Source: an uncultured Flavobacteriales bacterium (GTDB taxonomy: Bacteria > Bacteroidota > Bacteroidia > Flavobacteriales_D > Sanyastnellaceae). From it: a DNA stretch of 51,784 nt. Below, in pieces: positions 4,178 through 51,784 of this stretch; position 1 is the stretch's first letter; every line of letters begins with the position of its first letter. Made by a program: the position numbers and the translations under genes. The DNA lies in NCBI GenBank assembly GCA_938085105.1, contig CALKGK010000025.1, forward strand, positions 1 through 51,784. Reading direction: 5' to 3'. The notes below the pieces were generated by a model that was not told the origin of the DNA, ran no database searches, and saw nothing but the letters and a program-made list of their open reading frames with translations.

Positions 4178-4190
4178 ATGATTTCCTGTC

Positions 4191-7289: not shown

Positions 7290-7331
7290 GATCGTTTCGT
7301 TTTCAAGACCAATTTCCGGACTCAGAGAAGT

Positions 7332-7339
7332 CAAAAATA
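7332..7339 (-). promoter_or_regulatory. Bacteroidota -7 element of the adhesin operon
   Basis: The minus strand reads TATTTTTG, a full match to TAnnTTTG, about 43 bases upstream of the adhesin ATG at 7289. I see no well-spaced TTG for the -33 element, so only the -7 box is called. Confidence 0.45.
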
Positions 7340-7394
7340 CCAATCTCTTTATTAAGTAATGCCCTTCAAGTAAAAAAGGTTGTCTGGACTTGGC

Positions 7395-7423
7395 TTGAAT
7401 TCGCCGTGAAAATAGAATATTTG
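7395..7423 (+). promoter_or_regulatory. Candidate promoter of the truC-like gene
   Basis: TTG at 7395-7397, 18 bases, then AATATTTG at 7416-7423 (one mismatch to TAnnTTTG). The ATG at 7434 is only 11 bases further, which implies a very short leader. Confidence 0.4.
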
Positions 7424-7433
7424 CACGACATTT

Positions 7434-9191: not shown

Positions 9192-12100
9192 ATGAAACAA
9201 ATTTTACGATCACTTAGCCTCTTTCTGGGGCTAATAGCTGGACTTTCAACTTCTGCACAAAACAACATTGAACTCAACCTCAGCACGGACTGCTGGGGAG
9301 GAGAAACTTCTTGGAACATTACTGACAGCAATGGAACCGAAGTAGCCTCATCAACAGGAACCACCTACGGAAGCCAAGAAACATTTCTGATTCCCTTAGA
9401 TTTAGCTGACGGATGTTACAGCTTTAACATCTCTGATACCTACGGAGATGGGATGTATGGATCTCAATACGGATCATGCTCCGTGGATGGAGACTATTCC
9501 ATTACCGACGCGAATTCCAATGTATTGGTTCAAATGACTGCAACCAATGCCGATTTTGGAAATGGAACCTCACATGACTTCGTTCTCCCGAACGGAGGAG
9601 GAAGCCCAGGTTGTACCGACCCTCTTGCATTGAACTATGACTCGTGTGCATCTACCGATGATGGTTCTTGTACTTATGAGCCTGTTACTGCAAGTTTCGA
9701 CGTTGCTTTAGGTTCAGGATGTGCAGGAAGCAGCATTGACCTCACTGACACCTCAACTGGAACCCCTACCTCTTGGTCTTGGGATTTGCCAGGAAGTGAT
9801 TTGGGTAGCTCAAACGATCAAAACCCAACAATATCCTACTCCACTCCAGGAGATTACACCATCACACTTACCGCAAATAATGACAACGGAAGTACGGATG
9901 TAAGTAGCCAAACGGTAACGATCACTGACGGTTTGATGATTGAAATTCAAATTGTTGCTGATAACTACCCTGCAGAAACTTCGTGGGAACTTGAAGATGA
10001 AGCAGGAAACATTGTTGCCAATGGAAATGCTACTGGTGGAATGTATTGCATCGCTGATGAATGCCACCGCTTTACCATGTTTGATACTTACGGAGATGGA
10101 ATTTGCTGTAATTACGGTGTAGGTTCTTTCACCATTCTTATTGATGGGGTTGAAGTAGCTACGGGAGGTGAATTTGGTGATAGCCAAACAGTGAATGTGA
10201 ACTGTCCTCCAGGAATCGACTGCAACAATGCGATTGCTGTTGACCTTGGTGAACACACCAACCCTATTGCTGATACTTGGTACACCTTTACCCCTGCCAG
10301 CAATGGTCAATACCGAATTACCACCTGTAATAGAGCTACTTGCGATACTCGAATTTGGGTTTACGACTATTGCAATATGCTGTTCTTTGACGATTCTGTA
10401 GAAGCTTCTTTGACCTACAACGATGATTTCTGTGGTGTTCAATCTGAAGTAACCCCGCTACTTGCTGGCGGACAAACCTATTATTTCCGAATTGGCTCTG
10501 CAGACAATGCTTGTGCAGGTGAGAACATTGGTTTCGCCTTGGAATACGTTGGTCTCGTTCAAGGTTGTATGGACCCACTTGCTTGTAACTATTTGCCCAT
10601 CGCCGAGGAGCCCGGAGAGTGTTTCCTTCCCGGAGACCCGGAGTGTCCGAGCATTGGTCCCGATCTAGAGATCTTGGGAGATGTATTTTACAACTCGATG
10701 TACTACACTACACTCGTGAATAACGATGAATGCTACATCAACGAGGGCTGCATGCAAGGATTCGGTGAACGCCAAATCATTCGTTTCAGCACACACATTA
10801 AAAACATTGGTACAGAAGATTATTTCATCGGAGATCCAAACGATCAGCCCGGTCAGTTTGAATTTGATGATTGTCACAACCACTGGCATTACGAAGGCTA
10901 TGCTGAATATTCTTTGTTTGATGATCTCGGTGCGCAGCTCCCACAAGTAGGTTTCAAAAATGGATTCTGTGTTCTCGATTTGGAATGTTCTGATGGTGGA
11001 ACAGCAAAGTATACCTGTGGTAACATGGGGATCACGGCTGGCTGTGGTGATATTTACTCGTCGAGCTTGGCTTGCCAATGGGTGGATGTTACCGACATTC
11101 CCGCAGGAACGTACACCTTGGTGATGAGAACCAACTGGGATCAATCGCCAGACGCCAACGGAAGCTACGAGTTGAGCTACGATAACAACTGGGCGGCGGT
11201 ATGCTTCTCCTTCGATAGAGATGCCAATGGTGATGTGATCAACTTTGAAAAATTCACCGATTGTCCTGTTTCTTTCGACTGTCAAGGTGCTCCTTTTGGT
11301 AATGCGCAACCCGATTGTGAAGGAAATTGCAACGGTATTGCCGTGAAAGGTGATGTGGATGGATCAGGTGATATTGAGCCTGCTGATTCTGATGTTTACA
11401 TTCAAGACATTCTTGGAGCAGATGCAGTCGTTAGTCCTTGTACTGATATGGACAACGACGGAAGCATTACCGTGACCGATGCGGCTTTGATTGCTGGCTG
11501 TGTTTACTACGGACCAGATTACGTTGAACCAGACGGAGTGCACGACCACTGTGTGTGGGACGATGAAATCACGAATCCGAACCACACAACAACGCTCAGC
11601 GTGGGTGAATTGAATACTGAATTGGGGTATGTTGATATCCATGTACTGAATCCAGACAATGAGATTGTGGGTTATGAATTTGAAGTTTCTGGGATGACCA
11701 TTCTAAGTGTAGAAAATTTGGCTGATCCCGCTGTTTATGACATTGCCCCTCAAGCATCATTGGGCGGTGTGAAGGTGATTGGACTTTCGTTCACAGACCA
11801 AACATTACCAAAGAACCTCACTCCCGTGCCACTTGTAAGGTTGAACTACCTCAATGTAACAGGAAGCGAAATTTGCGTTACTGGAATTACAGATGTTGTA
11901 AATGAAGACTTCCACAACGTAGCTACAGTGATTGGCGCTTGTCAACAAGTGGCCGCTGCTGATTTTGCTGATTTCACTTCTGACGTCATGAGCGTTTGCC
12001 AAGGAGAAGCCGTAAGCTACTTCGACCTCAGTTCTGGCAATCCAGATTCTTGGAGTTGGAGTTTTGGTGGTGGAACACCATCATCCAGCAATGATCAAAA

Positions 12101-12596
12101 CCCCGTGATCACCTACAATGCACCAGGCACCTATCCAGTGACGCTCACGGTGACGAACGCACAAGGGTCAGACAGTGAAACAAAAATGGCGTTCATTACT
12201 GTTGAAGCGGGGAACACGTGGTACTTGGACAGCGATGGAGATACTTATGGAGATCCAAACAATTCCATTTTTAGCTGCGATACGCCTGCAGGATATGTTC
12301 TGAATGCAGACGATTGCGATGACGAAAATGCAGCAATGTATCTCGGAGCTCCAGGTACTTTTGAAGGAATTGATAACAACTGCGATGGAAACGTGGACGG
12401 AGATGAACTAGCTCCTACTCCATGTATGGGTGATTTGAACAATGACGGAATGCGTGACATCTCCGATTTATTGCTGATTCTCCAAGATTACGGTTGTTCT
12501 GAGTCGTGTGGCTTGGCTGATGTGAACGAAGACGGTGTGGTGAACAACTCAGACCTCCTATCCTTCCTTCCAGGATTCGGGACATCGTGTGACTAA
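9192..12596 (+). CDS. Secreted multidomain lysyl-oxidase-like protein with dockerin-like C-terminus
   Basis: 1134 residues. Order: signal peptide (1-23); a TYGDG beta-domain (about 24-135); a GCT...DDGSC module (140-160); PKD domain (165-245); a second TYGDG domain (about 248-335); a beta-domain resembling bacterial pre-peptidase modules (340-460); a second GCMDP module; a lysyl oxidase domain (489-700); an internal dockerin-like segment (720-775); a cohesin-like domain (about 799-915); PKD (920-1005); MopE-like calcium motifs (1010-1068); and a final pair of dockerin-like EF-hands ending FGTSCD (1075-1134). The oxidase core is complete by eye: copper motif His562-x-His564-x-His566 and the expected quinone-cofactor pair Lys589 (GFKNGFC) and Tyr622 (DIYSSSLACQW). 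Lysyl oxidases oxidise lysine amines to aldehydes and so cross-link proteins. There is no type A or B T9SS signal. Activity and surface location are inferred. Confidence 0.87.
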   Translation: MKQILRSLSLFLGLIAGLSTSAQNNIELNLSTDCWGGETSWNITDSNGTEVASSTGTTYGSQETFLIPLDLADGCYSFNISDTYGDGMYGSQYGSCSVDGDYSITDANSNVLVQMTATNADFGNGTSHDFVLPNGGGSPGCTDPLALNYDSCASTDDGSCTYEPVTASFDVALGSGCAGSSIDLTDTSTGTPTSWSWDLPGSDLGSSNDQNPTISYSTPGDYTITLTANNDNGSTDVSSQTVTITDGLMIEIQIVADNYPAETSWELEDEAGNIVANGNATGGMYCIADECHRFTMFDTYGDGICCNYGVGSFTILIDGVEVATGGEFGDSQTVNVNCPPGIDCNNAIAVDLGEHTNPIADTWYTFTPASNGQYRITTCNRATCDTRIWVYDYCNMLFFDDSVEASLTYNDDFCGVQSEVTPLLAGGQTYYFRIGSADNACAGENIGFALEYVGLVQGCMDPLACNYLPIAEEPGECFLPGDPECPSIGPDLEILGDVFYNSMYYTTLVNNDECYINEGCMQGFGERQIIRFSTHIKNIGTEDYFIGDPNDQPGQFEFDDCHNHWHYEGYAEYSLFDDLGAQLPQVGFKNGFCVLDLECSDGGTAKYTCGNMGITAGCGDIYSSSLACQWVDVTDIPAGTYTLVMRTNWDQSPDANGSYELSYDNNWAAVCFSFDRDANGDVINFEKFTDCPVSFDCQGAPFGNAQPDCEGNCNGIAVKGDVDGSGDIEPADSDVYIQDILGADAVVSPCTDMDNDGSITVTDAALIAGCVYYGPDYVEPDGVHDHCVWDDEITNPNHTTTLSVGELNTELGYVDIHVLNPDNEIVGYEFEVSGMTILSVENLADPAVYDIAPQASLGGVKVIGLSFTDQTLPKNLTPVPLVRLNYLNVTGSEICVTGITDVVNEDFHNVATVIGACQQVAAADFADFTSDVMSVCQGEAVSYFDLSSGNPDSWSWSFGGGTPSSSNDQNPVITYNAPGTYPVTLTVTNAQGSDSETKMAFITVEAGNTWYLDSDGDTYGDPNNSIFSCDTPAGYVLNADDCDDENAAMYLGAPGTFEGIDNNCDGNVDGDELAPTPCMGDLNNDGMRDISDLLLILQDYGCSESCGLADVNEDGVVNNSDLLSFLPGFGTSCD

Positions 12597-21900: not shown

Positions 21901-22204
21901 GATCGACCTCATAAAACCCCGTGCAAATCACAACAAGGTGTCCACCTGCTGGAACCATATTCCCGTTCGGAATTTCAAATTTTTGTGGATTGGTAGGATC
22001 GTCAGAAAGGAAGTATCCACCAGCATCAATCGCTGCTGCAGTTGGATTATAAATTTCGATCCAGTCTTCGAACTCTTCTTCCCATGCGTCGGGATCGAAG
22101 TCAAACTGATCATAATTGGCAGCAGAAAATTCGTTGAGTTGCAATTGTGAGAAAGCGCAAAGGCTCAAGAACAACAGACCGGTGCTTAGCAGGATTCTTT
22201 TCAT
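18917..22204 (-). CDS. CotH-kinase surface protein with lamin-tail domain and type B T9SS signal
   Basis: 1095 residues. Signal peptide (1-19, CAFSQ), lamin-tail domain (about 20-115; LNEFSAAN, WIEIYNP), a chitobiase/hexosaminidase C-terminal-like beta domain (about 185-255; GASIYYTLNGDRPS), then a CotH kinase-like domain (about 262-650). The CotH part shows YINGEYWGVYEYREKVDD and RYALWDSDASFGH, corresponding to the conserved glutamate/aspartate motifs of spore-coat CotH kinases. Four repeats of about 90 residues (about 690-1000) follow, each with a DVQPAGAGDI-type start and FDHWE or FSHWE, like InlB B-repeat or bacterial Ig-type modules. Residues from about 1005 form the gliding-motility C-terminal domain (YIPNSFTPNNDGKNDVFL, LMVFNRWGEVVFES). 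So the protein should reach the cell surface by T9SS. No PorP/SprF partner lies beside it. Extracellular protein phosphorylation is a possible activity, not shown. Confidence 0.88.
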   Translation of the reverse strand: MKRILLSTGLLFLSLCAFSQLQLNEFSAANYDQFDFDPDAWEEEFEDWIEIYNPTAAAIDAGGYFLSDDPTNPQKFEIPNGNMVPAGGHLVVICTGFYEVDPMTFGYLNTSFRITQTKPESVVFTDPSGTVLSEFNYISDIQPNQMNHSYGRSSDGAADWVIFTTPTPGAANAGVTGSAYSAEVQADTESGYYGGAINVGLSTPELGASIYYTLNGDRPSNASTLYTGPINLNTTSTLRAIAYSANGDILPSQILTNTYFFGADQHVIPVVNIAGNTLGDGTWMGDELTAIEFFDENGAFWVESTGDSNEHGNDSNAYGQRGFDYVTRDQMGQNWALLAELFNLTNRDDFQRLIFKAAANDNYSFENGAHIRDAYVHTLSELANMKLDERTSESCIVYINGEYWGVYEYREKVDDIDFTLDKYNQPRNFVDFLKTWGGTWEEYGSGDDWYDLVDFVTTNDMSDPANYDYVTSVYNQTSLIDYMILNSYIVSMDWLNWNTAWWRGRHPDGGAKRWRYALWDSDASFGHYINYTGIPDTSPNADPCDPEGMGDVGGQGHVPVFNALLDNPDFQAEYYNRWASMSNTYFSCDYMIGLLDEMTGRIAPEMQRQVDRWGGTYAGWEAAVQEMRDFIEDRCNDTVIDGMTDCYNVEPATVTIIIDGIGEVEISEADINQDMSPWEGTYWVDVPINLEATTDLGVFLFWEVQSGNVIFPDPNAPNQEIIIDGDVVIIAHFAENLDPQMVMFDVQPAGAGDILMDGDIMGPYPNTLLIDPGTHNLDAVPTNQWFVFDHWEILNANPTPDEFALPAEIYVAQTDSVIAVFNAIEHYTVNIDVQPAGAGDIEIDGTPLASYPWSGELEGGIDLNFVTTANDIWYSFSHWEVNNHVLTPDEFSADMIINLSSTDDIVAVYDEIPHFDLTVKISPPLSGYVVLDDGTIVNDEWSATVEGGIDYDFNAYPRDYYTFDTWEARNHNAQPSNQDASVIFNINQNDTIVANFAQEEFTMYIPNSFTPNNDGKNDVFLPIGRSYDVEKYELMVFNRWGEVVFESTDPMEAWNGSYQGGTHYINDEIFMFKLKVKPVHEIEEKVIEGHITVIR

Positions 22205-29849: not shown

Positions 29850-31715
29850 CTATTGCTTAACAATCATGCGTTGTGTTGATCTTCCTTCGCTGAGGGTGTA
29901 TCTCATCAAGTAGGTTCCTGAGGCCAGTTCAGCAATGGAGATGTTTTTCACGTAATCATTCATCGGAATCGTTTTGATCCATTGTCCGTGCGTGCTCCAA
30001 ATCGAAACCTCTCCTTGGGCTTCGGTGCTTTTAATGGTGATCTCATCTTGAGCGGGGTTCGGATAACAATCAAAAGCAAGAAGGGCTTCCTCAATGTTAT
30101 CACAAACATCCACGGTTACTGATATTGCGTCCAAAGCAGAGCAGCCGAACTCATTTTCTACATTTAGAATGAAAGAGTGGGTTCCGATACCCAAGGTTTC
30201 TCCATCGACAAGAAAAAATTGATTTGTGCTTTCATCTTGCCAAGAGTATTCAAAACCAAGCGGACCGCTCAACACCAATTGATCGTCCAAGCAAATGGTG
30301 GTGTCGCTTCCTAAGTTCAGGTTGACCTCGTTTAAGGCGTTCAAGTTGACATTTGCCGTAAACTCGCAGCCGTTGTCATCTTCCAACTCCAAGGTGTAAG
30401 TTCCTTCGTTCAAGTTTTCGTTGATTTCATTAATGGATACGAAGTCGTCTGGCCCTTCCCAGATGAACTCATAAGGAGCAGTACCACCGGTAACGTTTGG
30501 AGTGATGGAACCATCGGCCGAAATTGGACAATCGGGGTTTTCTACATTAAACGAAACCTGTATAGGAGCAGGATTGATGATGGTGTAAGACTCTGTAAAC
30601 ACATTTCCACAAGCATCGGTTGCGGTTAAAGTATATTCTCCAGCATCCAAACCTTCAAGATCTTGCTCAGTGCTTGAAAAACCATTTTCACCGCTCCAAA
30701 CACATGTAAAGTTTTCACCACTCCCTATGATGAATGGACGAATCGAACCGTCTCCACTCTCTCCTTTATCTGGAGCACAATTAATGCTGTTCACTTGAGC
30801 ACCAAGTTCCAAAACAGGATTTGCAATCGTTGCGGTCACAAACACGTTTCCTTGTGCACCATTCCAGCCATCGATTTGGAGGTAGTATTCTGTACCCGCC
30901 TCAAGACAAGAAGTGGTAAACGTTGAAGCGAATCCATTGGCAACACCACAACCGCCATCATCGTTGGCCGCAATGAGCTCATAAGTATCGAAATCGAGAC
31001 AATCATCTACCGAATACAACGCCATTTGGGTGTCAAAATCTGTTCCTTCCACACAAGAAGTAATGGTCAAAGGATCATTGGTTTCTGGAATGATGGTGAA
31101 CCAGATGGTATTGCTGAGTACATTTTCGCACCAATCTCCCGGAAAACCACAGCCACCATCATTTGGTGCAGGCTCTCCATTTTGAGCAGAAGCGTTATCA
31201 TTGTTTCCTTGAGCTGGAGCAGCACCAACCAACAATTGTTCGGATCCGCAAGGGAAGTCGACAAAAGGACCTTCGGGCAATTCCGCAACGAACTCAAATA
31301 CATTTCCAGCACCATTTCCATTGAAAGCCGCGAATTGCACTCCATCAATGAAGAGATCGAAAGACAAACCTCCATCGCCCCAATCATCAACATAATGAAT
31401 GCTGTACGCTTGTCCTTCCGTCAAACAAACATCTTCCAGGGTAATGCTGGTGTTGTTGGGGTAGCCATTCCCACCGTTGGAATCTTGATTTCCTCCCGTA
31501 TCGCAAGACACTTGAGCATCATTCCCTTCAATAAGAATGGGGCTTTCATCGCAGTCATCTCCTGCGAGCGTGAGTTGCCAGTAGGCTTCATAGCCCCAAG
31601 CGTCGGTGTTCATCACAAAAGTAACAGGCACTTCACCCGGAGCGCATTGGGCATGAATAATTGAGGGGAAAGAGCACATCAAAATGGCTCCCAATAAGAG
31701 TAAGGATTGTTTCAT
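29850..31715 (-). CDS. Secreted surface protein with SprB-like repeats and type A T9SS signal
   Basis: 621 residues. Signal peptide 1-22 (ending IIHA); a DWGDG beta-domain (about 28-145; related to the TYGDG modules of the gene at 9192); a pre-peptidase-like beta-domain (about 150-300; NTIWFTIIPETNDP, DTQMALYS, YYLQIDG); two SprB-type repeats (about 300-460); a further Ig-like segment (460-540); and a type A sorting domain from about 543 (FDCYPNPAQDEITIKS, SGTYLMRYTLSEG, RMIVKQ). The signal should direct export by T9SS and attachment or release at the surface. No enzymatic domain is seen, so it is probably structural or adhesive. Divergent from cvfB; a TAAATTTG box at 31748-31741 on the minus strand is a good -7 candidate. 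Confidence 0.87.
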   Translation of the reverse strand: MKQSLLLLGAILMCSFPSIIHAQCAPGEVPVTFVMNTDAWGYEAYWQLTLAGDDCDESPILIEGNDAQVSCDTGGNQDSNGGNGYPNNTSITLEDVCLTEGQAYSIHYVDDWGDGGLSFDLFIDGVQFAAFNGNGAGNVFEFVAELPEGPFVDFPCGSEQLLVGAAPAQGNNDNASAQNGEPAPNDGGCGFPGDWCENVLSNTIWFTIIPETNDPLTITSCVEGTDFDTQMALYSVDDCLDFDTYELIAANDDGGCGVANGFASTFTTSCLEAGTEYYLQIDGWNGAQGNVFVTATIANPVLELGAQVNSINCAPDKGESGDGSIRPFIIGSGENFTCVWSGENGFSSTEQDLEGLDAGEYTLTATDACGNVFTESYTIINPAPIQVSFNVENPDCPISADGSITPNVTGGTAPYEFIWEGPDDFVSINEINENLNEGTYTLELEDDNGCEFTANVNLNALNEVNLNLGSDTTICLDDQLVLSGPLGFEYSWQDESTNQFFLVDGETLGIGTHSFILNVENEFGCSALDAISVTVDVCDNIEEALLAFDCYPNPAQDEITIKSTEAQGEVSIWSTHGQWIKTIPMNDYVKNISIAELASGTYLMRYTLSEGRSTQRMIVKQ

Positions 31716-34996: not shown

Positions 34997-37900
34997 ATGA
35001 AGCATTTCACTCTTCTTTTTTGCCTTTTCTTTCTTGCTCTGAGTTCGTCTAACGCTCAGGTTTCAAGCACTTCTTGTGGTTCGGAACAAGTGATGGAAAG
35101 AATGATGGACGCCGATTCGAATTACGTTCGGAACATCTTTATCTTGAACAAAAGAGCTCGCGCCCTAGAACGTGTACCCGCAAGCCAGAGAAGCAACGAG
35201 ATTCATTCCATTCCCGTTGTTTTTCACATCATCCACGAAGGGGAAGCGGTTGGACAAGGTTCCAATTTGTCGGATGAACAAATTCTGAGTGCCATGACGG
35301 CCTTGAACGAAGATTTTAGAAAAATTGCAGGATCTAACGGCGATGGAGATGGAGCCGATATCGGTATTGAATTCTGCTTGGCTCGAAGAACTCCTGAAGG
35401 AAATGCCACCAACGGTATTGTGCGTGTGGATGGGAGCGTTGTTCCGCTTTATGCCGAAGAAGGAATTCGTGCCTCCGGAGATGAAGGTGCGGTAGAATTG
35501 GATGTAAAAGCCTTGTCTACTTGGCCTCGCGAAGACTACCTCAACGTTTGGGTGGTGAACGAAATTGAAAACAACGATGCCTTGAATGGAATTCAGGGTT
35601 ATGCTTATTTCCCGGTCAATAATCCTGTTGATGGTGTGGTGATGCTTCACAACGCCGTAGGTACGGTAGGAAACATTAAGCCAAATACGGCTTTAAACAG
35701 AACCTTAAGCCATGAAGTTGGTCATTACCTCGGTTTGTACCATACTTTTCACAATACGAACGATTGCAGCGGAGAGAGCAACTGTGAAAGTCAGGGCGAC
35801 CGTGTTTGCGATACTCCACCAACGATTTTAAGTGTTAGCTGTGCTAATCCAGCCTGTGGCGGAACTCAGCAAACAGAAAACTATATGGACTATACGGCTG
35901 AATCGTGCAGAAACATGTTTACTGAAGGACAAAAAGTACGGATGCGTTCTACCTTGGAGAATGAACGAAGCTCCATCCTTTCCTCTGCCGGTTGTGTTCC
36001 TGTTACCGATTTTGATCTTGCCGTTACAGAAATCACTTCCCCAGTTCAAAGCTCTTGCAGCAATGAACTTTCACCCCGCGTTAGATTGACCAACTATGGA
36101 AACCTTACTGTAACTGCCACTGATATTGAATACGGTATCGATGGTGGTTTTGATTTTGACTTCTCTTGGTCTGGAAACCTGGCTAGTGGAAGCTCCATTC
36201 TTATCGATTTACCCGGTATTTCTAGTCCGATTGGCAATCATACCTTCAATGCACGAAGCCGAACTCCTAACGGACAAGCAGACCAGAACGAGAACAATGA
36301 CGGCATCAGCGGAGCTTATACCATTGCCAATGGAGCGAGCTTTAATTTGGCTGTAACCTTGGACTACTTCGGAACAGAAAATACCTGGAGCATTATGGAT
36401 GATAACGCCAATGAAGTGGCCAGCGGCGGACCATACATCAACAACAACCAAGGACTCGTCATGAACGAATCGATTTGCCTCAATGAAGGTTGCTACACCC
36501 TTTGGTTTTTTGATGCCTATGGAGATGGTATGAGCTTCACCAATGGAAACTACCTTTTTAGCGATAGTGAAGGAAATGAAATTGCCGCCAACTCAGGGAA
36601 TTTTGGAGACGAAGTGGCGCACCCCTTCTGTGTTGAAGTGGAAAACAACGCAGTAGCGCCAAGTGCCAACTTTAGTGCGAGTGAGACCAGTATTTGTGTT
36701 GGTTCATCCATCGATTTTCAAAATACGAGTTTGAATGAGCCCAATTCTTGGACATGGAGTTTTCCGGGAGGAAATCCTTCAAGCAGCACACAAGTGAACC
36801 CACAAAACATTGTCTATAACACTCCTGGAGTCTATGAAGTCGTGCTTACCGTAAGCAACGAAGCAGGAAGTGATACTGAAACAAAAACGAATTACATCAC
36901 TGTAAATGCCACACCCAACATCTCCCTAAACGGCATCAACCCTAGCTGCCATGGAATGAACAACGGAAGCATTTCACTAAGCGGAGCATCTGGAGCTAGC
37001 AACATCCTTTGGAGCACGGGATCAAGTGGTCAAAACATTAGCGGTTTGGCTGCAGGAAACTACAGCGTTACCGTGAGCACTGGTCCGTCTTGCTCTTCAA
37101 GTGCAAGCGTAAGTTTAATTGAACCCAACGAAATTCAAAGCAACTTCAACGCCAGTCAGCCTTCGTGCTTTGGTGAGAACGATGGGAGCATTCAAGTGAA
37201 CGCCTCGGGAGGAACTGGATCCTTGAACTATTCTTGGGACAACGGAAGCACAGGAAGCCAGATCAATAATTTGCTTGCCGGGCAATATACCTGCACCATT
37301 ACGGATGCCAACAACTGCAGCAGCTCAAACTCCATTGTGCTTCAAGAAACACCTGAATTGGATTTGAACTTAAGTGTTTTGAACATTTCTTGTGATGGAG
37401 ACCTCGGTTCAGCCAGCATTGCTCCTACAGGGGGAACAGCACCATACACGGTATTTTGGAGTACCAACTCCTCGAACATGGGGATTGATCAGTTGACTCC
37501 TGGGGATTACTCTGTGAGTGTTTTTGATGCCAATTCATGCAGCACAAGTGAGAATTTCACGGTAGTTGATGGAAACGAGCTCAACATCGTTCCAAGCATT
37601 CAAGGTGTTTCTTGCACCGGAGAAAGTGATGGATCCATCAGCATCGATATCATTGGTGGCACCGGAAACTACAGCATCTCTTGGTCGAATGGAAACAACA
37701 GTACTTCCATTGACAACCTCAGCACTGGAGAATACAGCGTCAACATCATTGATGAAAACGGGTGTCTTGGAGAAGCTACCTTTAATGTTCCAGAGAGCAA
37801 CCCCATCAACATCAACATCTTTAAATCAGACATCTCTTGTAATGGTCTGAGCGATGGAAGTGCACAAGCCAGTATCAGTGGCGGCACCGCACCTTACGAA

Positions 37901-39121
37901 TTGAGTTGGTCGAACAATCAAACGGGCCCCAACATTTCCGATCTTGAATCAGGCCAATATACTTTGGAAGTGCAGGACGCAAACGCTTGTTCAGCAAGCG
38001 AAAGCATCAATATCGTTGAGCCGAGTTTGATGAGTGCAAACATCTCTGTACTCGCCAATGAAAGTTGCGCAGGTGGGGATGGATCTTTGGCGGTGAATGT
38101 GCTCGGTGGTACACCTGGCTATACTGTAACTTGGAATACAGGAGCCCAAGGGATGGTGCTTGACAATTTGGTGGCCAATGAATATTCAGCAACGATTATC
38201 GATGCAGGGGCTTGTTCTTTGAACGTGAGCGGCACCGTAATTTTCGACTGTGAAATCGAAGTGCAGACCAGCATGTTGATCGATGAAGATTGTGGAGCTA
38301 CTGAACTGCATTTGGATGATTACATTCACTGCGAAGCTGTGGATGGAGCTGAAATGTACCAATGGAAAGTAGAAAACTTTGCTGCCGGTTTGTTTTCCGA
38401 GAGCTATACTATGGGGAACAACATCTCCTTGCTCTTGAGTGAAATCAATGGATTAGAGTATGCGATGAATGCCACTGTTCAGATTCGAGCTCAAAAAGAC
38501 GGAACATGGTCTGCATACGGTCCTGCCTGCATGATCTCCACTTCGAATGATGTTCCCGTTGCGCTTCTTTTCAAAAGCGATTGTGGTGCTACGCTCGAAC
38601 TTCAAGATCAGTTGAATTGTACTGCAGTTGCGGGAGCTTATGCTTACGAATGGGAAATTGCAGATGCTGAAAACAGCAATGTGTACCAAAGCTATGTGAA
38701 CCTCTTGAATTTAGGTCCCGAAATGGGCATTGAACCGGGTGGAAACTACACCGTGCGCGTTCGAGTGCAAGTGGGCAACCAATTTAGCGAATGGAGCAGC
38801 GCCTGTCCGATTAGTTTTGAAACGACTTCAGACCTTAACGACTTGTACTCCAATGGAAGTGGATTCCGTTTGTATCCTAACCCGTCAAATGGTGAAGAAA
38901 TTTCCATCGAAATGTGGAACCTTTCTGGAGAGCTTGACGTAATAGAATTCAAAGTCTTCGATACCGGAGGAAAGCTGATTGAAAACATTCAACTTTCCCC
39001 CATGGGAGAAGCGAAATTTACGACCACCTACCGTTTTGGTCGACGCCTAGCAGCCGGATTGTACTTCGTGCAATATCAGCTCGGGAACGACCTTAAAGAA
39101 GAGAAGTTGATTGTTAGATGA
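34997..39121 (+). CDS. Secreted M43 (pappalysin-type) metalloprotease with adhesin repeats, type A T9SS signal
   Basis: 1374 residues. Signal peptide (1-21). The M43 peptidase domain (about 50-335) has the extended zinc motif HEVGHYLGLYH (His239, Glu240, His243, His249) and the Met-turn NYMDYT (Met297), with a cysteine-rich stretch between. After it: a CARDB-like domain (337-445), a DAYGDG beta-domain (450-555), a PKD domain (about 558-640), six SprB-type repeats (about 645-1085; each with a C-x-G start and a GGT turn), two tandem copies of a 95-residue module (about 1090-1280, CGAT...LDD.I.C and WSAYGPAC/WSSACPIS), and a type A sorting domain (YPNPSNGEE, AAGLYFVQYQL, KLIVR). It should be a surface or released protease that also adheres. 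The two 95-residue modules resemble Fn3 domains. Confidence 0.92.
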   Translation: MKHFTLLFCLFFLALSSSNAQVSSTSCGSEQVMERMMDADSNYVRNIFILNKRARALERVPASQRSNEIHSIPVVFHIIHEGEAVGQGSNLSDEQILSAMTALNEDFRKIAGSNGDGDGADIGIEFCLARRTPEGNATNGIVRVDGSVVPLYAEEGIRASGDEGAVELDVKALSTWPREDYLNVWVVNEIENNDALNGIQGYAYFPVNNPVDGVVMLHNAVGTVGNIKPNTALNRTLSHEVGHYLGLYHTFHNTNDCSGESNCESQGDRVCDTPPTILSVSCANPACGGTQQTENYMDYTAESCRNMFTEGQKVRMRSTLENERSSILSSAGCVPVTDFDLAVTEITSPVQSSCSNELSPRVRLTNYGNLTVTATDIEYGIDGGFDFDFSWSGNLASGSSILIDLPGISSPIGNHTFNARSRTPNGQADQNENNDGISGAYTIANGASFNLAVTLDYFGTENTWSIMDDNANEVASGGPYINNNQGLVMNESICLNEGCYTLWFFDAYGDGMSFTNGNYLFSDSEGNEIAANSGNFGDEVAHPFCVEVENNAVAPSANFSASETSICVGSSIDFQNTSLNEPNSWTWSFPGGNPSSSTQVNPQNIVYNTPGVYEVVLTVSNEAGSDTETKTNYITVNATPNISLNGINPSCHGMNNGSISLSGASGASNILWSTGSSGQNISGLAAGNYSVTVSTGPSCSSSASVSLIEPNEIQSNFNASQPSCFGENDGSIQVNASGGTGSLNYSWDNGSTGSQINNLLAGQYTCTITDANNCSSSNSIVLQETPELDLNLSVLNISCDGDLGSASIAPTGGTAPYTVFWSTNSSNMGIDQLTPGDYSVSVFDANSCSTSENFTVVDGNELNIVPSIQGVSCTGESDGSISIDIIGGTGNYSISWSNGNNSTSIDNLSTGEYSVNIIDENGCLGEATFNVPESNPININIFKSDISCNGLSDGSAQASISGGTAPYELSWSNNQTGPNISDLESGQYTLEVQDANACSASESINIVEPSLMSANISVLANESCAGGDGSLAVNVLGGTPGYTVTWNTGAQGMVLDNLVANEYSATIIDAGACSLNVSGTVIFDCEIEVQTSMLIDEDCGATELHLDDYIHCEAVDGAEMYQWKVENFAAGLFSESYTMGNNISLLLSEINGLEYAMNATVQIRAQKDGTWSAYGPACMISTSNDVPVALLFKSDCGATLELQDQLNCTAVAGAYAYEWEIADAENSNVYQSYVNLLNLGPEMGIEPGGNYTVRVRVQVGNQFSEWSSACPISFETTSDLNDLYSNGSGFRLYPNPSNGEEISIEMWNLSGELDVIEFKVFDTGGKLIENIQLSPMGEAKFTTTYRFGRRLAAGLYFVQYQLGNDLKEEKLIVR

Positions 39122-42454: not shown

Positions 42455-42943
42455 ATGCGCACCACCCTCACCATACTTGCGCTGGTTTTTCTTTTTGCTC
42501 AACCGGTTCAGAGTAAACACCACTATACTTTTCAGTCTCTCCTGACGCTCAATCTCACCCAAGTGAAAGAGGTTCAGTTCATTTTGGAAAGACAACTTCA
42601 AATTGGAGATGAATGCACTTATGTTCAGAAATCCAAAAGTTTTGAGGTGACTACCTCTCAGCCCATTGAAGCAGAAAAGCTGAACAATGCCATCAACAAA
42701 GCAGGCCATTTTTTTCGAGTGATTCAAGGTAGCCACCCAGAAGAGTTGACTTTGAATAAAAGCACCGCTTCTCATAGCGAAGAACAGATGCTCAGACAGC
42801 GCTGGTTTGAAATCCACCACATGGCTTTGGACTTGGAGCTGGATGCCGCTGTTGAAATCCTCACTGAAGAGGAATTCAATACCCTCCACCCCGAAAAAAG
42901 AGCGAAAATTCAAGAAATAAAAACCATTGTCATCCTACCGTGA
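42455..42943 (+). CDS. Small secreted protein of unknown function, coupled to the downstream surface protein
   Basis: 162 residues with a signal peptide (1-20, ending VQSKH). The mature part alternates between a ferredoxin-like beta-alpha pattern (VKEVQFILERQLQIGDECTYV...KSFEVTTSQPIEAEKLNNAINKAG), as in HMA-like domains but without the metal cysteines, and an acidic helical C-terminus. No family recognised. Its stop codon TGA (42941-42943) shares one base with the ATG of the next gene (TGATG), so translation of the two should be coupled. It may act as a partner in folding or export of the surface protein; that is inference. Confidence 0.75.
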   Translation: MRTTLTILALVFLFAQPVQSKHHYTFQSLLTLNLTQVKEVQFILERQLQIGDECTYVQKSKSFEVTTSQPIEAEKLNNAINKAGHFFRVIQGSHPEELTLNKSTASHSEEQMLRQRWFEIHHMALDLELDAAVEILTEEEFNTLHPEKRAKIQEIKTIVILP

Positions 42944-44781
42944 TGAAACTCATTAGCACTTTTCTCGCTTGCATGGGGCTATTCATCATTCAAGCTCAGT
43001 GTCCGAACGACAATACCCTGATGTGGGACATTACTCCAACAGGTCCTGGCGACACTCAAACTGCAAACTGCGCTTGGGGAGGTGAAAGCTACCCTTTCAA
43101 TGTTACTCTTGGTGAAACCTATGAAATCAGCACTTGTGGCGGAAATTGGGATTCCCAAATCACCCTGTATGATCAAGGAGGTAACTTCTTGGCTTTCAAT
43201 GACGATTTTTGTGGATGGCAATCGTTCATCTCCTACACGGCTGCGGCTACGGAAACCATTTATGCTGTGGTGGACGAATACAATTGCTCCAACAATTCAA
43301 ATTGTGGAATAGATTTGTCGGTCACCCACCTAGGCGGAGCTGCACCAAGCAACAATACCTGTTTGGATGCTAGCGTGATTTCTTGCGGTGAAACGGTTGT
43401 TGGAAGTACAGCAAACGCTACCAACAATGGCGGTGTAAATTGCGGAACCAGCGTTTCTGCTCCTGGAGTGTGGTTTCAAATTATTGGCAATGGAGAGCTT
43501 ATTACACTGGACTTGTGTAACTCTTCCTACGACACGAAAATCAACGTTTACAGCGGTTCTTGTGGAAATTTAAACTGTGTTGGCGGAAACGATGATGATT
43601 GCGGCTACCAATCCAGCATCGGCTTTGCAAGTATTGACAATCTTGATTATTACGTTTTAGTTCAAGGTTATGGAGGTGGTACCGGTGATTTCGAAATATC
43701 AGTAAGCTGTGAAGAAATTAACCTGAACACAAGTCCGCAAGAATGCCAAGGCGCGGTAACCATTTGTGACGACAGTTCATTGGATGGAAACAGTGATGGC
43801 GCGGGGTACGTTCAAGATTTAAATGGAATCAACCAAGGATGCTTGAGTTTGGAGCACCAGTCCAACTGGTTTGTCTTTTCCCCCATAACAACTGGCCATA
43901 TTGAATTCACCCTCACTCCAAGCAACGGCATCGATTACGACTTTGCCATTTGGGGACCTTTTGAGCAAGAACAAACTCCTTGTCCGCCCGTCGGAACTCC
44001 CCTGCGATGTTCATACAGCGCACTATATGCCCCCACGGGATTGGTGATCGGCGCTGGCGACACGAGCGAATCTCCGAGCGGTGATGCTTGGGTAGAAGCC
44101 ATTGAAGTTGGTCCGAATGATTTGGACAAGAACTACCTCATGCTCATCGATAATTTTACCTCAGATAATTCCAGTTATTCCTTGGATTGGGACCTTACTG
44201 GAGTATCTCTGAACTGTGCGCTTCTGCTTCCTGTCGAATTGATCCGGTTTGAAGGACGTGCCTTGCAGGATCGAAATGAATTGATTTGGACCACAGCTAG
44301 CGAATACAACAACGATTATTTTGAAGTACAGCGATCGACGGATTTGATCAACTGGGAAGTCATCAAGCAAGTGGACGGATTGGGAAGTTCTCAAAATGAA
44401 ACCACTTACATGGCCAACGATGCGGAACGTCCTTACGGAACAGCTTACTACAGGTTAAGGCAAGTAGATTTTAACGGTGAAAGCGAATTGAGTCATGTCA
44501 TTTCCGTGAGTCATTTTCAGAAGCTCGACCTCATGGCGGTTTTTCCAAATCCGGGTAATGGAACTTTTAAAGTAATGTTCAAGATGTTTGAAGATGCACC
44601 TGTGACCCTTGTTGTGTACGATTTGAGTGGAAGAATCATTCATGAATCCAAGCTTCAAGGCAAAGAGGGGATTAACGATCTGATGCTCGACCTGACCACA
44701 GCAACGGCAGGCACCTACTTTTTGAAGTTCCTCGATGATTATGGAACTACGATGAGTCAAAGCAGAATTAGCATCAAGTAG
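42943..44781 (+). CDS. Secreted surface protein with type A T9SS signal
   Basis: 612 residues from ATG 42943 (a GTG one codon earlier is in frame). Signal peptide 1-18 (IIQAQ). Residues 20-260 hold two pre-peptidase-like or CUB-like beta-domains rich in cysteine (TISTCGGNWDSQITLYD, YDTKINVYSGSCGNLNC). A third beta-domain follows at about 270-430 (NWFVFSPITTGHIEFTL, YDFAIWGPF). The Fn3-like segment LIRFEGRALQDRNELIWTTASEYNNDYFEVQRSTD, common before type A signals, leads to the C-terminal signal (FPNPGNGTFKVMF, GTYFLKFLDDYG, ISIK). It looks like a binding or adhesion protein without an enzyme domain. It is coupled to the small secreted protein before it. Confidence 0.86.
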   Translation: MKLISTFLACMGLFIIQAQCPNDNTLMWDITPTGPGDTQTANCAWGGESYPFNVTLGETYEISTCGGNWDSQITLYDQGGNFLAFNDDFCGWQSFISYTAAATETIYAVVDEYNCSNNSNCGIDLSVTHLGGAAPSNNTCLDASVISCGETVVGSTANATNNGGVNCGTSVSAPGVWFQIIGNGELITLDLCNSSYDTKINVYSGSCGNLNCVGGNDDDCGYQSSIGFASIDNLDYYVLVQGYGGGTGDFEISVSCEEINLNTSPQECQGAVTICDDSSLDGNSDGAGYVQDLNGINQGCLSLEHQSNWFVFSPITTGHIEFTLTPSNGIDYDFAIWGPFEQEQTPCPPVGTPLRCSYSALYAPTGLVIGAGDTSESPSGDAWVEAIEVGPNDLDKNYLMLIDNFTSDNSSYSLDWDLTGVSLNCALLLPVELIRFEGRALQDRNELIWTTASEYNNDYFEVQRSTDLINWEVIKQVDGLGSSQNETTYMANDAERPYGTAYYRLRQVDFNGESELSHVISVSHFQKLDLMAVFPNPGNGTFKVMFKMFEDAPVTLVVYDLSGRIIHESKLQGKEGINDLMLDLTTATAGTYFLKFLDDYGTTMSQSRISIK

Positions 44782-46487: not shown

Positions 46488-49400
46488 TCATTCGCAATTT
46501 GTCCCGAAACTCCCCAAGAACAAGACCAAGTCTGCAGTATTGATGAATCCGTCCAAATTCAAATCAATTGGACAAGGGTTGAGAGCAGGGAATACACAAT
46601 TACCGTCATCAATGGTGGCTTGCGGATTGTAATTCTCGGCAACATCGTACATACATCCATGGATGATTGGCGTTGTACAACTTCCATCGTCATTTCCAGC
46701 GAAAGGATTGAACTCCATAAAGAAGGGACTCGTACATCCTTCACAGGCCTCACAAAATGCATAGCACACCACGTCGAGTTGAAGGGATTCATCACCAACA
46801 AATACTTCTCGGTTGTTCGATCCAAATCCATTCTCCACAGCACAAGGCGCTGGCACAACTTCATCTTCACCAAAGCTATTTCCGTTAATGAATTTATAGA
46901 AATAGGTGGTATTGGCGTCCAGTTGGGCGGTGTACTCATAGATCCCAAATCCAAGGTAATTCATGGGTGTTGACCCAGGGTTCCAACTTTGGAAATTGGC
47001 GGTAAGATGAACTCCATTTGGCGATACTTCGACGTTCGACATGTCTACACGGAAGGTCACACTCACCTGAGGAGAAACACACGCGGCACAGGTTCCGAAG
47101 CAATGCAAAGGCAAAACCACATCGGCCATTCCAATGGAAGCCTGTCTCAAGCCACCAATCAAACATGCTCCACCCGGTACTTCTTCTTCAGCGGAAGTGT
47201 TTCCGTTGATAAAAAGGTATTCAATGGAGCTTCCTTCATCCAATAAAATGCTCGTTTCCCAGATACTTCCGCCGACATTCACCAAGGGATTGGCTGTAGG
47301 GTCCCATCCATTAAAATCGCCATAAACATGAACCCCGTTGGGACTTACCGTCTCATTGTTCATGTCCAATCTGAAGGTGAGGGTATATTGAGGTAAGGGA
47401 CAAGCGCTGCACAATGAAAAGCACGGAGCATCAAGCACCACGTCTTCGTTAGCAAAAGTAGCTTCCCGATTTCCATCGATGGCGCATTCTACAGGAACAC
47501 TTTCATCTTCTCCCCAAGCATTTCCATTGATGAATTTGTATTGAGTCAAAGAACCAGCAGGCAATTCAACTTGTACTGACCAAATGCCGTTTCCTTGATC
47601 ACTGAGCGGCGTTGCAGCGGGGTCCCAACCTTGAAAATCCCCGGCGATGTGGACACCAAGCGGACTAAGCATTTCGTTACTCATATCGACTTGAAAAGTC
47701 ACTTGGATCGGTCCGATATTGCAATTGGTGCATTCTGAAAAACACACAAGGGGCAATGTAAGGTCATCCAAACCAAGCGACAAAGTTCGATTGAATTGTC
47801 CTAAGCCATTATCTACTCCACAATTGGATGGAACCGTTTCTTCTTCAGCGAATGTTAGTCCGTTCAAAAACTTATACTCAATCGTGGACAGAGCTGCAAG
47901 TTCTGTTGTGAATGACCAAATGCCGTTTCCTTCATCCGTCATCGCATCAACTCCTGCCACCCATGGTGGATCTTGAAAATTTCCTACGATGTAAACTCCA
48001 TCTGGACTCACCGTTTCATTGCTCATGTCCACCTGAACCGTGAGTGTGACATCATCCAAAACACAAGCATTGCAAGACCCAAAACACACGGCGTCGAGGA
48101 CGGTGTCTGAGCTTAAATGATTATGGAATCGGTTACCACTGTTTGCGCAAAGGGCAGGAACGGTCTCATCCAGTCCCCAAGCATTTCCATTAACAAATTT
48201 GTACTCGTAGGTGGTCAGCTCAGCCAAGTTCAAGGTGATTTCATACACTCCATCCAAATCAGGGTCAAGCATTTCCAATACACTCGGATCCCAATTCACA
48301 TAACTGGGATTTTCGAAGATTCCATCGCTGTTGGGGTCTGCGAAGTTACCTGCGATGAAAACGCCATCAGGTGAAATCACCTCAGCATTCATGTCTACCT
48401 GAAATGTTAAATCATAGCGCACGATTGGTGTAGTTCCCTGCCAGAAGGATGAACCATAATCATTTGCTCCTCCGGTAAAATTGAACGGAGCTGCACCACT
48501 GGCAAAAAGGGTAACATCATCCCAAACACCTCCACTCACAGCAACGGAAGCCCTTGTGTTGTTTCCACTACCCCATTGAACGTAGTCCATAATGGCGTTC
48601 ACATCCTCAAAAGTATTGGTCGAATACAATCCAATCTCTCCACTCGTTCCGGTCAGTGCCGGCCAGGAAAGCGTTAGCATTTCATTGGGGTCAAGAACAA
48701 GCGTTCCACTCACAATAGAAATGGTGTTGAGCTCATTGTAAATTGGAAAATTGCAAAGGAAATGATTGCTCAAATCAATGCTCGCGTTCCCTTGGTTTTG
48801 AAGTTGAACTTCATTGTTGTCCGGGTTGAAGGAAACAATTCTCACTTGAGCAGAAGGACTCACACAAGCCTCACAAGCATTCCAGCAAAATGGACCATAG
48901 ACGACATCTTGATCCAATGTAATGTTCCGATTGAAAAAACCATTGAGATTGCTTACACAGCTTTCACTTCCCGTGAAATTTTCTTGATTGCTCAGATTGT
49001 CAACAGAAAATTTGAAATCATAGCTACCTTCAGCTAAGGTGATGGTTGTGCTGTAGATGTTGTCAAATTCGGGGTCGGTAAGCACCTCGCAATTTCCACA
49101 GAAGCCATTCCAACTTCCTCCTACGGCAACCGTATTGAAGACCCCAGGATATTGCGACATATCGACCTCCAAGGTAAGCTCGTAGCTGTACGCACAGCTT
49201 CCGTCATCCACCTGAGCTAAAGGGTCGAAATTATCTGCATTGATATCTGTACAACCTTCAGGAAGAGAACAAGGATCGCAAGATGCAAAGCAATGCAGGT
49301 CCAAAACAAGGTTATCTACTCCAGTGCTGAAAGACCGGTTTCCATTGAGTTCACAAGCTGCTGGAACTTGTTCATCCAAGCCCCATTGATTACCGTTAAC

Positions 49401-49640
49401 GTACTTGTATTCAAAGGAACTTTGTTCGTCCAAGCTCAGGGTAATGGTCCAAATACCATTGCCTTGATCAATCATTGGAGTACTACTAGGCTCCCAACCT
49501 TGGAATGAACCAGCAAGATGAACACCATTGGGATCGGTTGATACTTGAGAAAGGTCTACTTGGAAAGTAACATCAACGCTTTGAGCTTGGAGGCCGAGCC
49601 CAAAAATGGCGCAGATTACAGCGAGAAAAAAAGTCTTCAT
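46488..49640 (-). CDS. Secreted protein with seven CBM20/48-like repeats and dockerin-like C-terminus
   Basis: 1050 residues. Signal peptide 1-19 (GLQAQ). Seven repeats of about 105 residues share the pattern VTFQVDMSNE..SPNGVHLAGSF and GWDP, then GNGIW, EYKFINGNxWGEDE.VP, C...GNR, and C-x2/3-C-x2-C at the end. This is the glycogen/starch-binding Ig-like fold (CBM20/CBM48 type) with its aromatic core. A lamin-tail-like segment (about 262-405) separates repeats 2 and 3. Two GCT...DDGSC modules and a dockerin-like tail ending CPIDLNLDG and FGTNCE finish the protein. There is no type A or B T9SS signal. It is followed upstream by the sugar-transporter-like gene, which fits a polysaccharide-binding surface role. 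Binding is inferred; the ligand is not known. A 15-base palindrome lies in the 124-base promoter region. Confidence 0.87.
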   Translation of the reverse strand: MKTFFLAVICAIFGLGLQAQSVDVTFQVDLSQVSTDPNGVHLAGSFQGWEPSSTPMIDQGNGIWTITLSLDEQSSFEYKYVNGNQWGLDEQVPAACELNGNRSFSTGVDNLVLDLHCFASCDPCSLPEGCTDINADNFDPLAQVDDGSCAYSYELTLEVDMSQYPGVFNTVAVGGSWNGFCGNCEVLTDPEFDNIYSTTITLAEGSYDFKFSVDNLSNQENFTGSESCVSNLNGFFNRNITLDQDVVYGPFCWNACEACVSPSAQVRIVSFNPDNNEVQLQNQGNASIDLSNHFLCNFPIYNELNTISIVSGTLVLDPNEMLTLSWPALTGTSGEIGLYSTNTFEDVNAIMDYVQWGSGNNTRASVAVSGGVWDDVTLFASGAAPFNFTGGANDYGSSFWQGTTPIVRYDLTFQVDMNAEVISPDGVFIAGNFADPNSDGIFENPSYVNWDPSVLEMLDPDLDGVYEITLNLAELTTYEYKFVNGNAWGLDETVPALCANSGNRFHNHLSSDTVLDAVCFGSCNACVLDDVTLTVQVDMSNETVSPDGVYIVGNFQDPPWVAGVDAMTDEGNGIWSFTTELAALSTIEYKFLNGLTFAEEETVPSNCGVDNGLGQFNRTLSLGLDDLTLPLVCFSECTNCNIGPIQVTFQVDMSNEMLSPLGVHIAGDFQGWDPAATPLSDQGNGIWSVQVELPAGSLTQYKFINGNAWGEDESVPVECAIDGNREATFANEDVVLDAPCFSLCSACPLPQYTLTFRLDMNNETVSPNGVHVYGDFNGWDPTANPLVNVGGSIWETSILLDEGSSIEYLFINGNTSAEEEVPGGACLIGGLRQASIGMADVVLPLHCFGTCAACVSPQVSVTFRVDMSNVEVSPNGVHLTANFQSWNPGSTPMNYLGFGIYEYTAQLDANTTYFYKFINGNSFGEDEVVPAPCAVENGFGSNNREVFVGDESLQLDVVCYAFCEACEGCTSPFFMEFNPFAGNDDGSCTTPIIHGCMYDVAENYNPQATIDDGNCVFPALNPCPIDLNLDGFINTADLVLFLGSFGTNCE

Positions 49641-51329: not shown

Positions 51330-51784
51330 TTAATTACATGTTGTTCCGAGCACACTCAAGAACAAGAGCAAATCGGAAGCGTTGATCAGTCCATCTGCAT
51401 TAAAATCTCCCATACATGTTTCCGCTGTGAAATCACAAGTTCCGTCGTCCACATTTGCGTAGATGTTGAAATTGTTCGCAGCAGGGTTGGTACATCCTGG
51501 ACGAGAGTACACACAAGATCCGTCGTCGACAGTAGCTGCTGCATTGTAGTTATCAGCATCTACATAAGTACATCCGCTCACTGAGGTGAAGGTACAAGAG
51601 CCGTCATCGTTGTTCGCTGCTGGATCGTAGTTGTTCGCTGCTGGGTCAGTACATCCTGAGATGATACATGATCCATCGTCGTTGTTAGCGGCCGGGTCAT
51701 AGTTATCTGCGGCTGCATTCGTACATCCTGAGATGATACAAGATCCATCGTCGTTGTTCGCTGCTGGATCGTAGTTGTCAGCGG
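51330..51784 (-). CDS. C-terminal end of a Cys-rich repeat protein with dockerin-like tail (cut by window edge)
   Basis: 151 codons are visible and the frame continues off the right edge; the start is not in the window. The visible part is five tandem modules of 20-27 residues with the pattern GCT...A.NYDPAA..DDGSC, followed directly by a 30-residue C-terminus (ETCMGDFNADGLINASDLLL through GTTCN) like that of the genes at 46488 and 9192. No T9SS type A or B signal is present. Probably a long secreted protein with a Cys-rich stalk or linker, disulfide-bonded by the paired cysteines of each module. Confidence 0.85.
   Translation of the reverse strand, partial: ADNYDPAANNDDGSCIISGCTNAAADNYDPAANNDDGSCIISGCTDPAANNYDPAANNDDGSCTFTSVSGCTYVDADNYNAAATVDDGSCVYSRPGCTNPAANNFNIYANVDDGTCDFTAETCMGDFNADGLINASDLLLFLSVLGTTCN
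51435..51784 (-). repeat. Tandem repeats in the Cys-rich protein, period 72 bases in the outer copies
   Basis: ACATCCTGAGATGATACA recurs at 51651 and 51723, exactly 72 bases apart, with the surrounding sequence nearly identical. The copies nearer the stop codon have diverged in length (63-81 bases). All keep the reading frame. Confidence 0.85.

Follow-up and report, generated by a model that had tools for sequence, protein, structure and literature searches.

Results

In the same protein families of an uncultured Flavobacteriales bacterium and its relatives, a short dockerin tail and the type A domain of the type IX secretion system (T9SS) alternate at the C-terminus, and this tail has expanded in one family of the Flavobacteriales. 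Both observations are new; the dockerin repeat itself and the C-terminal GC-type dockerin are already known. Among the titles and abstract openings listed by literature searches, no description was found of a one-repeat tag, of its mass use in one family, of alternation with T9SS domains or of the hidden cohesin reported below. The analysis started from the window, which is the whole stretch of 51,784 nucleotides, and from an earlier reading of it made without database searches (the sequence-only reading).

Tail-bearing proteins of the window

Three proteins of the window had been proposed to end in the same C-terminal unit, and translation confirmed that the three tails are real. Two of them had been placed at 46488-46580 and 51330-51422, where tails are indeed present; however, the plus-strand translation there is unlike the motif, and both lie on the minus strand. 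The description as a single unit is right for 46488-49640(-) and 51330-51782(-) and wrong for 9192-12596(+), since the C-terminus of the latter consists of two repeats, CMGDLNNDGMRDISDLLLILQDYGC-SESC-GLADVNEDGVVNNSDLLSFLPGFGTSCD, followed by the stop codon. The features concerned are the following:

46488..46574, minus strand: one-repeat dockerin tail and stop codon (CPIDLNLDGFINTADLVLFLGSFGTNCE, E 5.3e-17, 0 residues to the stop), C-terminus of the CBM48-repeat protein
46488..49640, minus strand: tail-bearing secreted protein of 1050 aa with a Sec signal peptide, CBM48-like modules (PF02922, E 4.7e-26), GCxx..DDGSC repeats and a one-repeat tail
51330..51416, minus strand: one-repeat dockerin tail and stop codon (CMGDFNADGLINASDLLLFLSVLGTTCN, E 1.3e-16, 0 residues to the stop), on a protein cut by the contig end
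51330..51782, minus strand: partial tail-bearing protein, cut by the contig end, with GCT..DDGSC repeats and the tail
12423..12596, plus strand: two-repeat GC-type dockerin tail and stop codon (NF041540, 29.6 bits, cut-off 29)
9192..12596, plus strand: tail-bearing secreted protein of 1134 aa with a signal peptide, PKD, lysyl-oxidase-like domain, internal dockerin, cohesin-fold module, PKD, MopE motif and two-repeat tail
11346..11564, plus strand: internal two-repeat dockerin, residues 719-791 (PF00404, 22 bits, 23 with neighbours in the frame, cut-off 22.9; predicted fold with Z 8.5 to the double dockerin 8x39_A)
11577..11945, plus strand: cohesin-fold module in a predicted structure (pLDDT 93.2, Z 11.6 to 6kgf_C), undetected by Pfam PF00963

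Repeats of the form GC[TMY]xxxAxNYxxxAxxDDGSC stand upstream of many tails, in the window in 51330-51782(-), 46488-49640(-) and 9192-12596(+), and reach up to 13 in one protein of the same genome by pattern count. In 51330-51782(-) they correspond to a 72-base tandem repeat at 51593-51784; the product of this gene, made up mostly of these repeats, was without an NCBIfam match at E <= 1, and in Pfam it had nothing but weak matches.

Tail census in the genome of the window

A profile of 28 columns, built from the three window tails, was searched against the genome to which the window belongs (3.17 Mb, 99% complete) and gave 41 matches at E <= 10, far above chance. Positions were assigned to the best 38, which excludes three weak matches (E 1.3-4.9). 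Of these 38, 27 lie at the C-terminus with 0-5 residues left before the stop codon, 10 form the leading half of a two-repeat tail, 28-38 residues ahead of the stop, and one is internal, being a partial match (E 0.25) 286 residues from its stop. This gives 27 tailed proteins in the genome, of which 17 carry a single repeat and 10 carry two. The tail had been claimed to sit at the extreme C-terminus, and all 27 do so, within 0-5 residues of the stop; a unit found mostly in mid-protein, named beforehand as a refuting case, was looked for by the profile search and did not occur. A chance repeat or a mid-protein repeat was therefore rejected.

The alignment of the 27 tails has five invariant columns, corresponding to both cysteines, two aspartates and one leucine. 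The bracketing cysteines of the sequence-only reading are thus present in 27/27 rows, an invariance that is partly due to selection because the search profile itself contained them. The N-terminus was in hand for 21 of the 27 proteins, the other six standing outside the signal-peptide count, and all 21 have a Sec-like signal peptide with Gln as the first residue beyond the probable cleavage site (recognised by pattern in 15 and by eye in 6). The bodies that carry the tail are diverse and include lysyl-oxidase-like, endonuclease I, peptidyl-arginine deiminase, subtilase, GH16, lamin-tail and trypsin-like proteins as well as CBM48 repeats. Another tailed protein, L065:1844-4603, has DUF7619 (PF24595, E 7.7e-42). 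A perfect tail was also found on a bodiless open frame of 52 residues (G000:C47:79483-79566; L065:5412-5570), as would come from a broken gene, a frameshift or an assembly error. A signal of the sortase or PEP-CTERM kind was dropped as a candidate, the tail sequences having no hydrophobic segment with a basic end.

Identity of the tail

The profile of the 27 tails matched ten dockerin chains among PDB sequences, with E from 5.7e-13 to 3.1e-6, including 2y3n_B (E 5.7e-13, both halves) and 1ohz_B (E 5.7e-9). As it finds solved cellulosomal dockerins, the tail is a dockerin repeat, and the dockerin-like pattern that had been proposed is borne out by sequence homology. The suggestion of a new module did not survive, since the repeat is known and its two-repeat C-terminal form already has an NCBIfam entry, NF041540, under the name 'GC-type dockerin domain-anchored protein'. 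The one-repeat, cysteine-bracketed tail is a variant of this GC-type dockerin. In both, secreted proteins have dockerin repeats and GC..C cysteines at their extreme C-terminus; however, 17 of the 27 tails here are one-repeat, and on homologues the tails and T9SS type A domains replace each other. Only one of 21 matches listed in a genome search with NF041540 was over the cut-off (9192-12596, 29.6 bits against 29), and the same protein scored 22.8 bits in hmmscan, below it. One-repeat tails reach at most 19.5 bits. The two C-terminal repeats that mark NF041540 are found in 10 of the 27 proteins and are missing from 17, including two of the three window tails.

With cellulosomal dockerin type I (PF00404) the tails have in common the D-x-N-x-D-G repeat and the match to both halves of solved dockerins; they differ in their bracketing cysteines, in often having one repeat, in their varied non-cellulolytic bodies and in that no scaffold was found. 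Against a cut-off of 22.9 bits, PF00404 gave 22.6 bits for 9192-12596 in hmmscan, 23.2 bits for it with its neighbours in the genome search, and 15.4 bits for 51330-51782.

Exclusivity and alternation with T9SS domains

Other secreted proteins of the window had been read as carrying T9SS signals, and profile matches agree, with three type A and two type B proteins:

29850-31715, minus strand: type A T9SS protein
34997-39121, plus strand: type A T9SS protein
42940-44781, plus strand: type A T9SS protein
4191-7490, minus strand: type B T9SS protein
18917-22204, minus strand: type B T9SS protein

The contrast between these neighbours and the tailed proteins is therefore real. The type B protein 4191-7490(-) is directly followed by a gene of the PorP/SprF family, 3223-4179(-), the cargo-shuttle order given for type B in PMC12618676.

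Tailed proteins had been said to lack type A and type B signals, and none of the 27 matches TIGR04183 or TIGR04131 (E <= 0.001), so that the combination named beforehand as a refuting case was sought in all of them and found in none. The genome has 111 matches to PF18962, 100 of them over the cut-off, and none falls in a tailed frame when coordinates are compared by eye. In two protein families scanned across genomes, PF18962 was present in 41/48 and 19/22 of the tail-less C-termini, 60/70 together, and likewise absent from the other 10, and it was found in 0/37 of the tailed C-termini scanned, with 20 further tailed rows outside the scan. An ordinary T9SS domain overlooked by eye in the tails was rejected on these counts (0/27 and 0/37).

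The first of the two families is defined by residues 719-918 of the 9192-12596 protein, which have 74 relatives in 54 of 61 genomes of the family. Their C-termini comprise 23 dockerin tails and 45 type A-like ends; six rows without a scored C-terminus were left out (L113, L115, L132, L138, L362, L366). L342(+) was scored tail-less by the pattern and is counted as tailed for its plain two-repeat end, and L369, which matches through the internal dockerin only, is among the 23 tailed rows and outside the tree. Second BLAST matches that are other proteins were not used (L289, L292, L293, L371(+), L372(+), L376(+)). Twelve genomes have one tailed and one type A-like paralogue (G077, G080, G083, G086, G095, G110, G128, G134, G137, G148, G161, G170). 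A first tree of 41 rows had two tag changes, one of them forced; the tree of 73 rows, made by a quick method and with some long branches, has three, all forced by well-supported branches, so that this body has swapped one tag for the other three times or more, and the two coexist in a cell.

The second family is endonuclease I, with 63 matches in 47 of 62 genomes: 35 are tailed, including the protein of the window's genome, 25 are tail-less, and three were left out (L274, L306 and the first half of a broken gene in G165). Identity to the window genome's protein is about 45-62% for tailed rows (80% for a tailed congener added later) and 25-36% for tail-less ones; these are separate subfamilies and not strict orthologues, which corresponds to one old split. 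In addition, the tailed protein L068:1845-4280 of the same genome, with a two-repeat tail, is a member of the 'choice-of-anchor B' family (TIGR04312, 505 bits, cut-off 100), a name that we take to refer to members with different C-terminal anchors. The part of the sequence-only reading that proposed selection for sorting or attachment fits this interchange with the type A domain on homologues.

The alternation bears on a second explanation, by which the tail would itself be a T9SS signal, a further class of C-terminal domain (CTD) beside types A, B and C, with a PorV- or PorP/SprF-like shuttle of its own for which the dockerin fold would have been recruited as ligand. The tail replaces the type A domain and is never seen together with it, and T9SS substrates abound, as the 111 PF18962 matches indicate. 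According to two papers, several CTD families are recognised and accepted by T9SS, type B uses dedicated shuttles (PMC12618676), and type C is a further CTD family (cl41395; PMC10202324), which makes a dockerin signal read by T9SS a live rival. Like the CTDs of type A (TIGR04183/PF18962), type B (TIGR04131) and type C, the tail is a terminal tag carried by Sec-exported proteins from these same families; however, it has no type A or B model match and is a dockerin repeat of 28-60 residues and not a beta-sandwich, whereas type A and B CTDs are described in PMC12618676 as beta-rich and of about 100 residues or longer, against 28 for one dockerin repeat.

Distribution among genomes

The tail was found in 48 of 150 genomes sampled across the order at E <= 1e-5. 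In the window's own family it is present in 40 of at least 41 sampled genomes (G131 is without it), and eight genomes of the order outside this family have it, with 1-3 matches each. At least 35 tail matches were counted in 26 of the 41 family genomes listed, and 34 in the window's own genome, 29 in its congener G065 and 1-11 in twelve other genomes of the family; these counts are of repeats and not of proteins, and the highest are to be read as at least 55. In a sample of 395 genomes across the phylum, at E <= 1e-6 and with up to 21 candidates scored per genome, the tail was found in three: the window's own genome, another of its family and one of the same order. At the level of the order, 30 loci were sought and 27 read, all 27 having 27-34 residues from the start of the match to the stop. 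Among tail-poor genomes, 20 of the 22 matches read end in a cysteine-bracketed tail at the stop; the other two, both of G036, do not.

Named relatives were sought with five one-repeat tails as the query, and the best 80 of at least 138 confirmed loci were classified, with repeats counted by regular expression. Thirty-six are from Bacteroidota, mostly metagenome-assembled genomes of Flavobacteriales, and all of these are terminal, 21 with one repeat. Another 40 are from Planctomycetota, 37 of them terminal and 34 of those two-repeat; at least one (L222) of the three terminal loci counted there as one-repeat is a doublet by eye. The remaining four are other or unassigned. Planctomycetota are not known to have a T9SS. 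The occurrence of like C-terminal dockerins in that phylum argues against the tail as a T9SS signal, a reading that is here considered unlikely. For a planctomycete group, PMC6461901 proposes a surface cohesin/dockerin complex, the 'planctosome', with a proposed adaptor that has both dockerin and cohesin, and this proposal, taken with the terminal dockerins of the phylum, favours docking. The likeness lies in non-cellulosomal cohesin and dockerin modules on secreted proteins; the difference is the other phylum and, in the passages of PMC6461901 considered, that no alternation with T9SS domains is described.

A predicted cohesin fold in the 9192-12596 protein

A predicted cohesin-fold module, undetected by Pfam, is encoded in the window. 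Residues 719-918 of the 9192-12596 protein were modelled from an alignment of 41 rows (pLDDT 93.2, pTM 0.88); a prediction from five rows (pLDDT 49) was set aside. At E <= 0.001, seven of the eight Foldseek matches were cohesin or scaffoldin chains and one a cellulose-binding domain, the best being 2jh2_B (E 1.2e-4, TM 0.53 by target). A second aligner matched the module to the cohesin chain 6kgf_C (Z 11.6, 120 residues, rmsd 2.8 A), and its first 31 rows were cohesins or cohesin-bearing modules, among which 2o4e and 3kcp are presumed to belong; the first clearly unrelated row was a GH20 enzyme domain with Z 8.4. The 73 residues before the module (model residues 1-73) matched a double dockerin with Z 8.5. 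Pfam cohesin (PF00963) has 0 matches in this genome, and the cohesin in it was recognised by predicted fold, at residues 796-918 of the 9192-12596 protein. From the model and the reading of the tail, this one protein combines a dockerin in its interior, a predicted cohesin fold and a dockerin tail at its C-terminus. Having a cohesin fold in common, here a predicted one, does not by itself demonstrate binding.

Search for a receptor

Co-occurrence with the tails was looked for in two cohesin-like candidates, and neither follows their distribution. Among 18 chosen genomes that were searched, the cohesin family of the window has one match in the genome to which the window belongs. It is absent from G044, where the tail matches number at least 55, and reaches no better than E 0.6 in G119, with 47 tail matches. 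Its absence from these tail-rich genomes rules it out as a general receptor. Pfam cohesin was likewise rejected as receptor for its 0 matches in the window's genome, and no multi-cohesin scaffold was found.

The second candidate came from 12 neighbourhoods in tail-poor genomes, where by motif flags eight tail genes directly adjoin a gene with a T9SS-A motif; this neighbour is cut by the contig end in two and missing in two. Most of these tail genes lie in a conserved cluster that also encodes a TonB receptor, a FISUMP lipoprotein and a beta-barrel; Pfam was used to check one cluster, and the others were judged from motifs and appearance. In five of seven aligned cases, two segments of the T9SS-A neighbour are cohesin-like by eye; these segments matched no PDB cohesin by sequence and gave no alignment with a tested cohesin. 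A profile of one such segment was found in 13 of 62 family genomes and not in the window's own; ten of the 13 are in genera g4, g8 and g9, whose measured members have 1-11 tail matches, two are in g57 and one is a marginal match in the tail-rich G083. Its gene order is attractive, but the lack of a cohesin match and its presence mostly in tail-poor genera argue against this neighbour as the receptor where tails are many.

Clusters of two families of the order (L245-L252 and L255, e.g., L248:4659-18415) have T9SS-A-type proteins that share an N-terminal 'VVVEKYY' stretch, together with a TonB receptor and mostly a FISUMP lipoprotein and an OMP barrel, some being cut or without a member. The clusters also contain a single tail protein, with one repeat and no match in Pfam.

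These data bear on a piggy-back export, in which the tail would bind, in the periplasm, a cohesin-type protein with its own T9SS domain and both would be exported jointly. Many polypeptides that contain the cohesin-fold module finish in a type A-like end (45 of 68 scored rows in the 9192-12596 family), and the T9SS-A-motif gene directly adjoins 8/12 tail genes in the tail-poor neighbourhoods, as this would have it; however, the cohesin protein of the window's genome ends in a tail and not in a type A domain, and the tail-rich G044 and G119 have no such protein (E 0.6 at best in G119), which leaves joint export a quite remote prospect.

The tail may instead be only a C-terminal cap, a protective end stabilised by calcium and disulfide, with no partner or sorting role. 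A canonical dockerin that binds cohesin has two repeats, so that a one-repeat tail amounts to just half of it, and this, the invariant bracketing cysteines and the failure to find a receptor among the candidates would all suit a cap. Yet a cap need not exclude a T9SS domain (0/27 and 0/37) nor be so concentrated in one family, and the two-repeat form is a full dockerin; a mere cap is accordingly judged improbable.

Proposed role of the tail

Alternation, terminal position, exclusivity and lineage-wide expansion are as expected of a sorting or attachment tag, and homology to dockerins suggests docking to a cohesin-fold partner. Here it is proposed, with about an even chance of being right, that the tail is an alternative C-terminal sorting or attachment tag working by dockerin-type docking onto a putative cohesin-fold receptor. 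Sec-exported proteins of this Flavobacteriales family would carry, in place of the T9SS type A domain, a tag built of F-hand calcium-loop repeats, one or two in number, with cysteines on either side of each. After export the repeat may bind calcium and be locked by a disulfide, it would then dock non-covalently onto the cohesin-fold receptor, and this docking may attach or group the tailed proteins at the cell surface. A broader proposal is more doubtful than probable: that in this one family the T9SS domain has given way to the dockerin tag on dozens of proteins in each genome, so that T9SS bacteria would have a second surface-display system in parallel, with disulfide-locked one-repeat dockerins as the minimal tag and a putative receptor or shuttle.

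Few families of C-terminal signals, types A, B and C, are recognised in the T9SS field. Should a dockerin of 28 residues be able to stand in for such a signal on the same proteins, there are two possibilities: T9SS reads a signal of quite another kind, or the proteins are displayed by docking, which would be the principle of the cellulosome outside cellulose degradation. The tail is also a very small candidate display tag, and the natural swaps, with the same body and a different tail, are a ready set for testing what C-terminal signals do.
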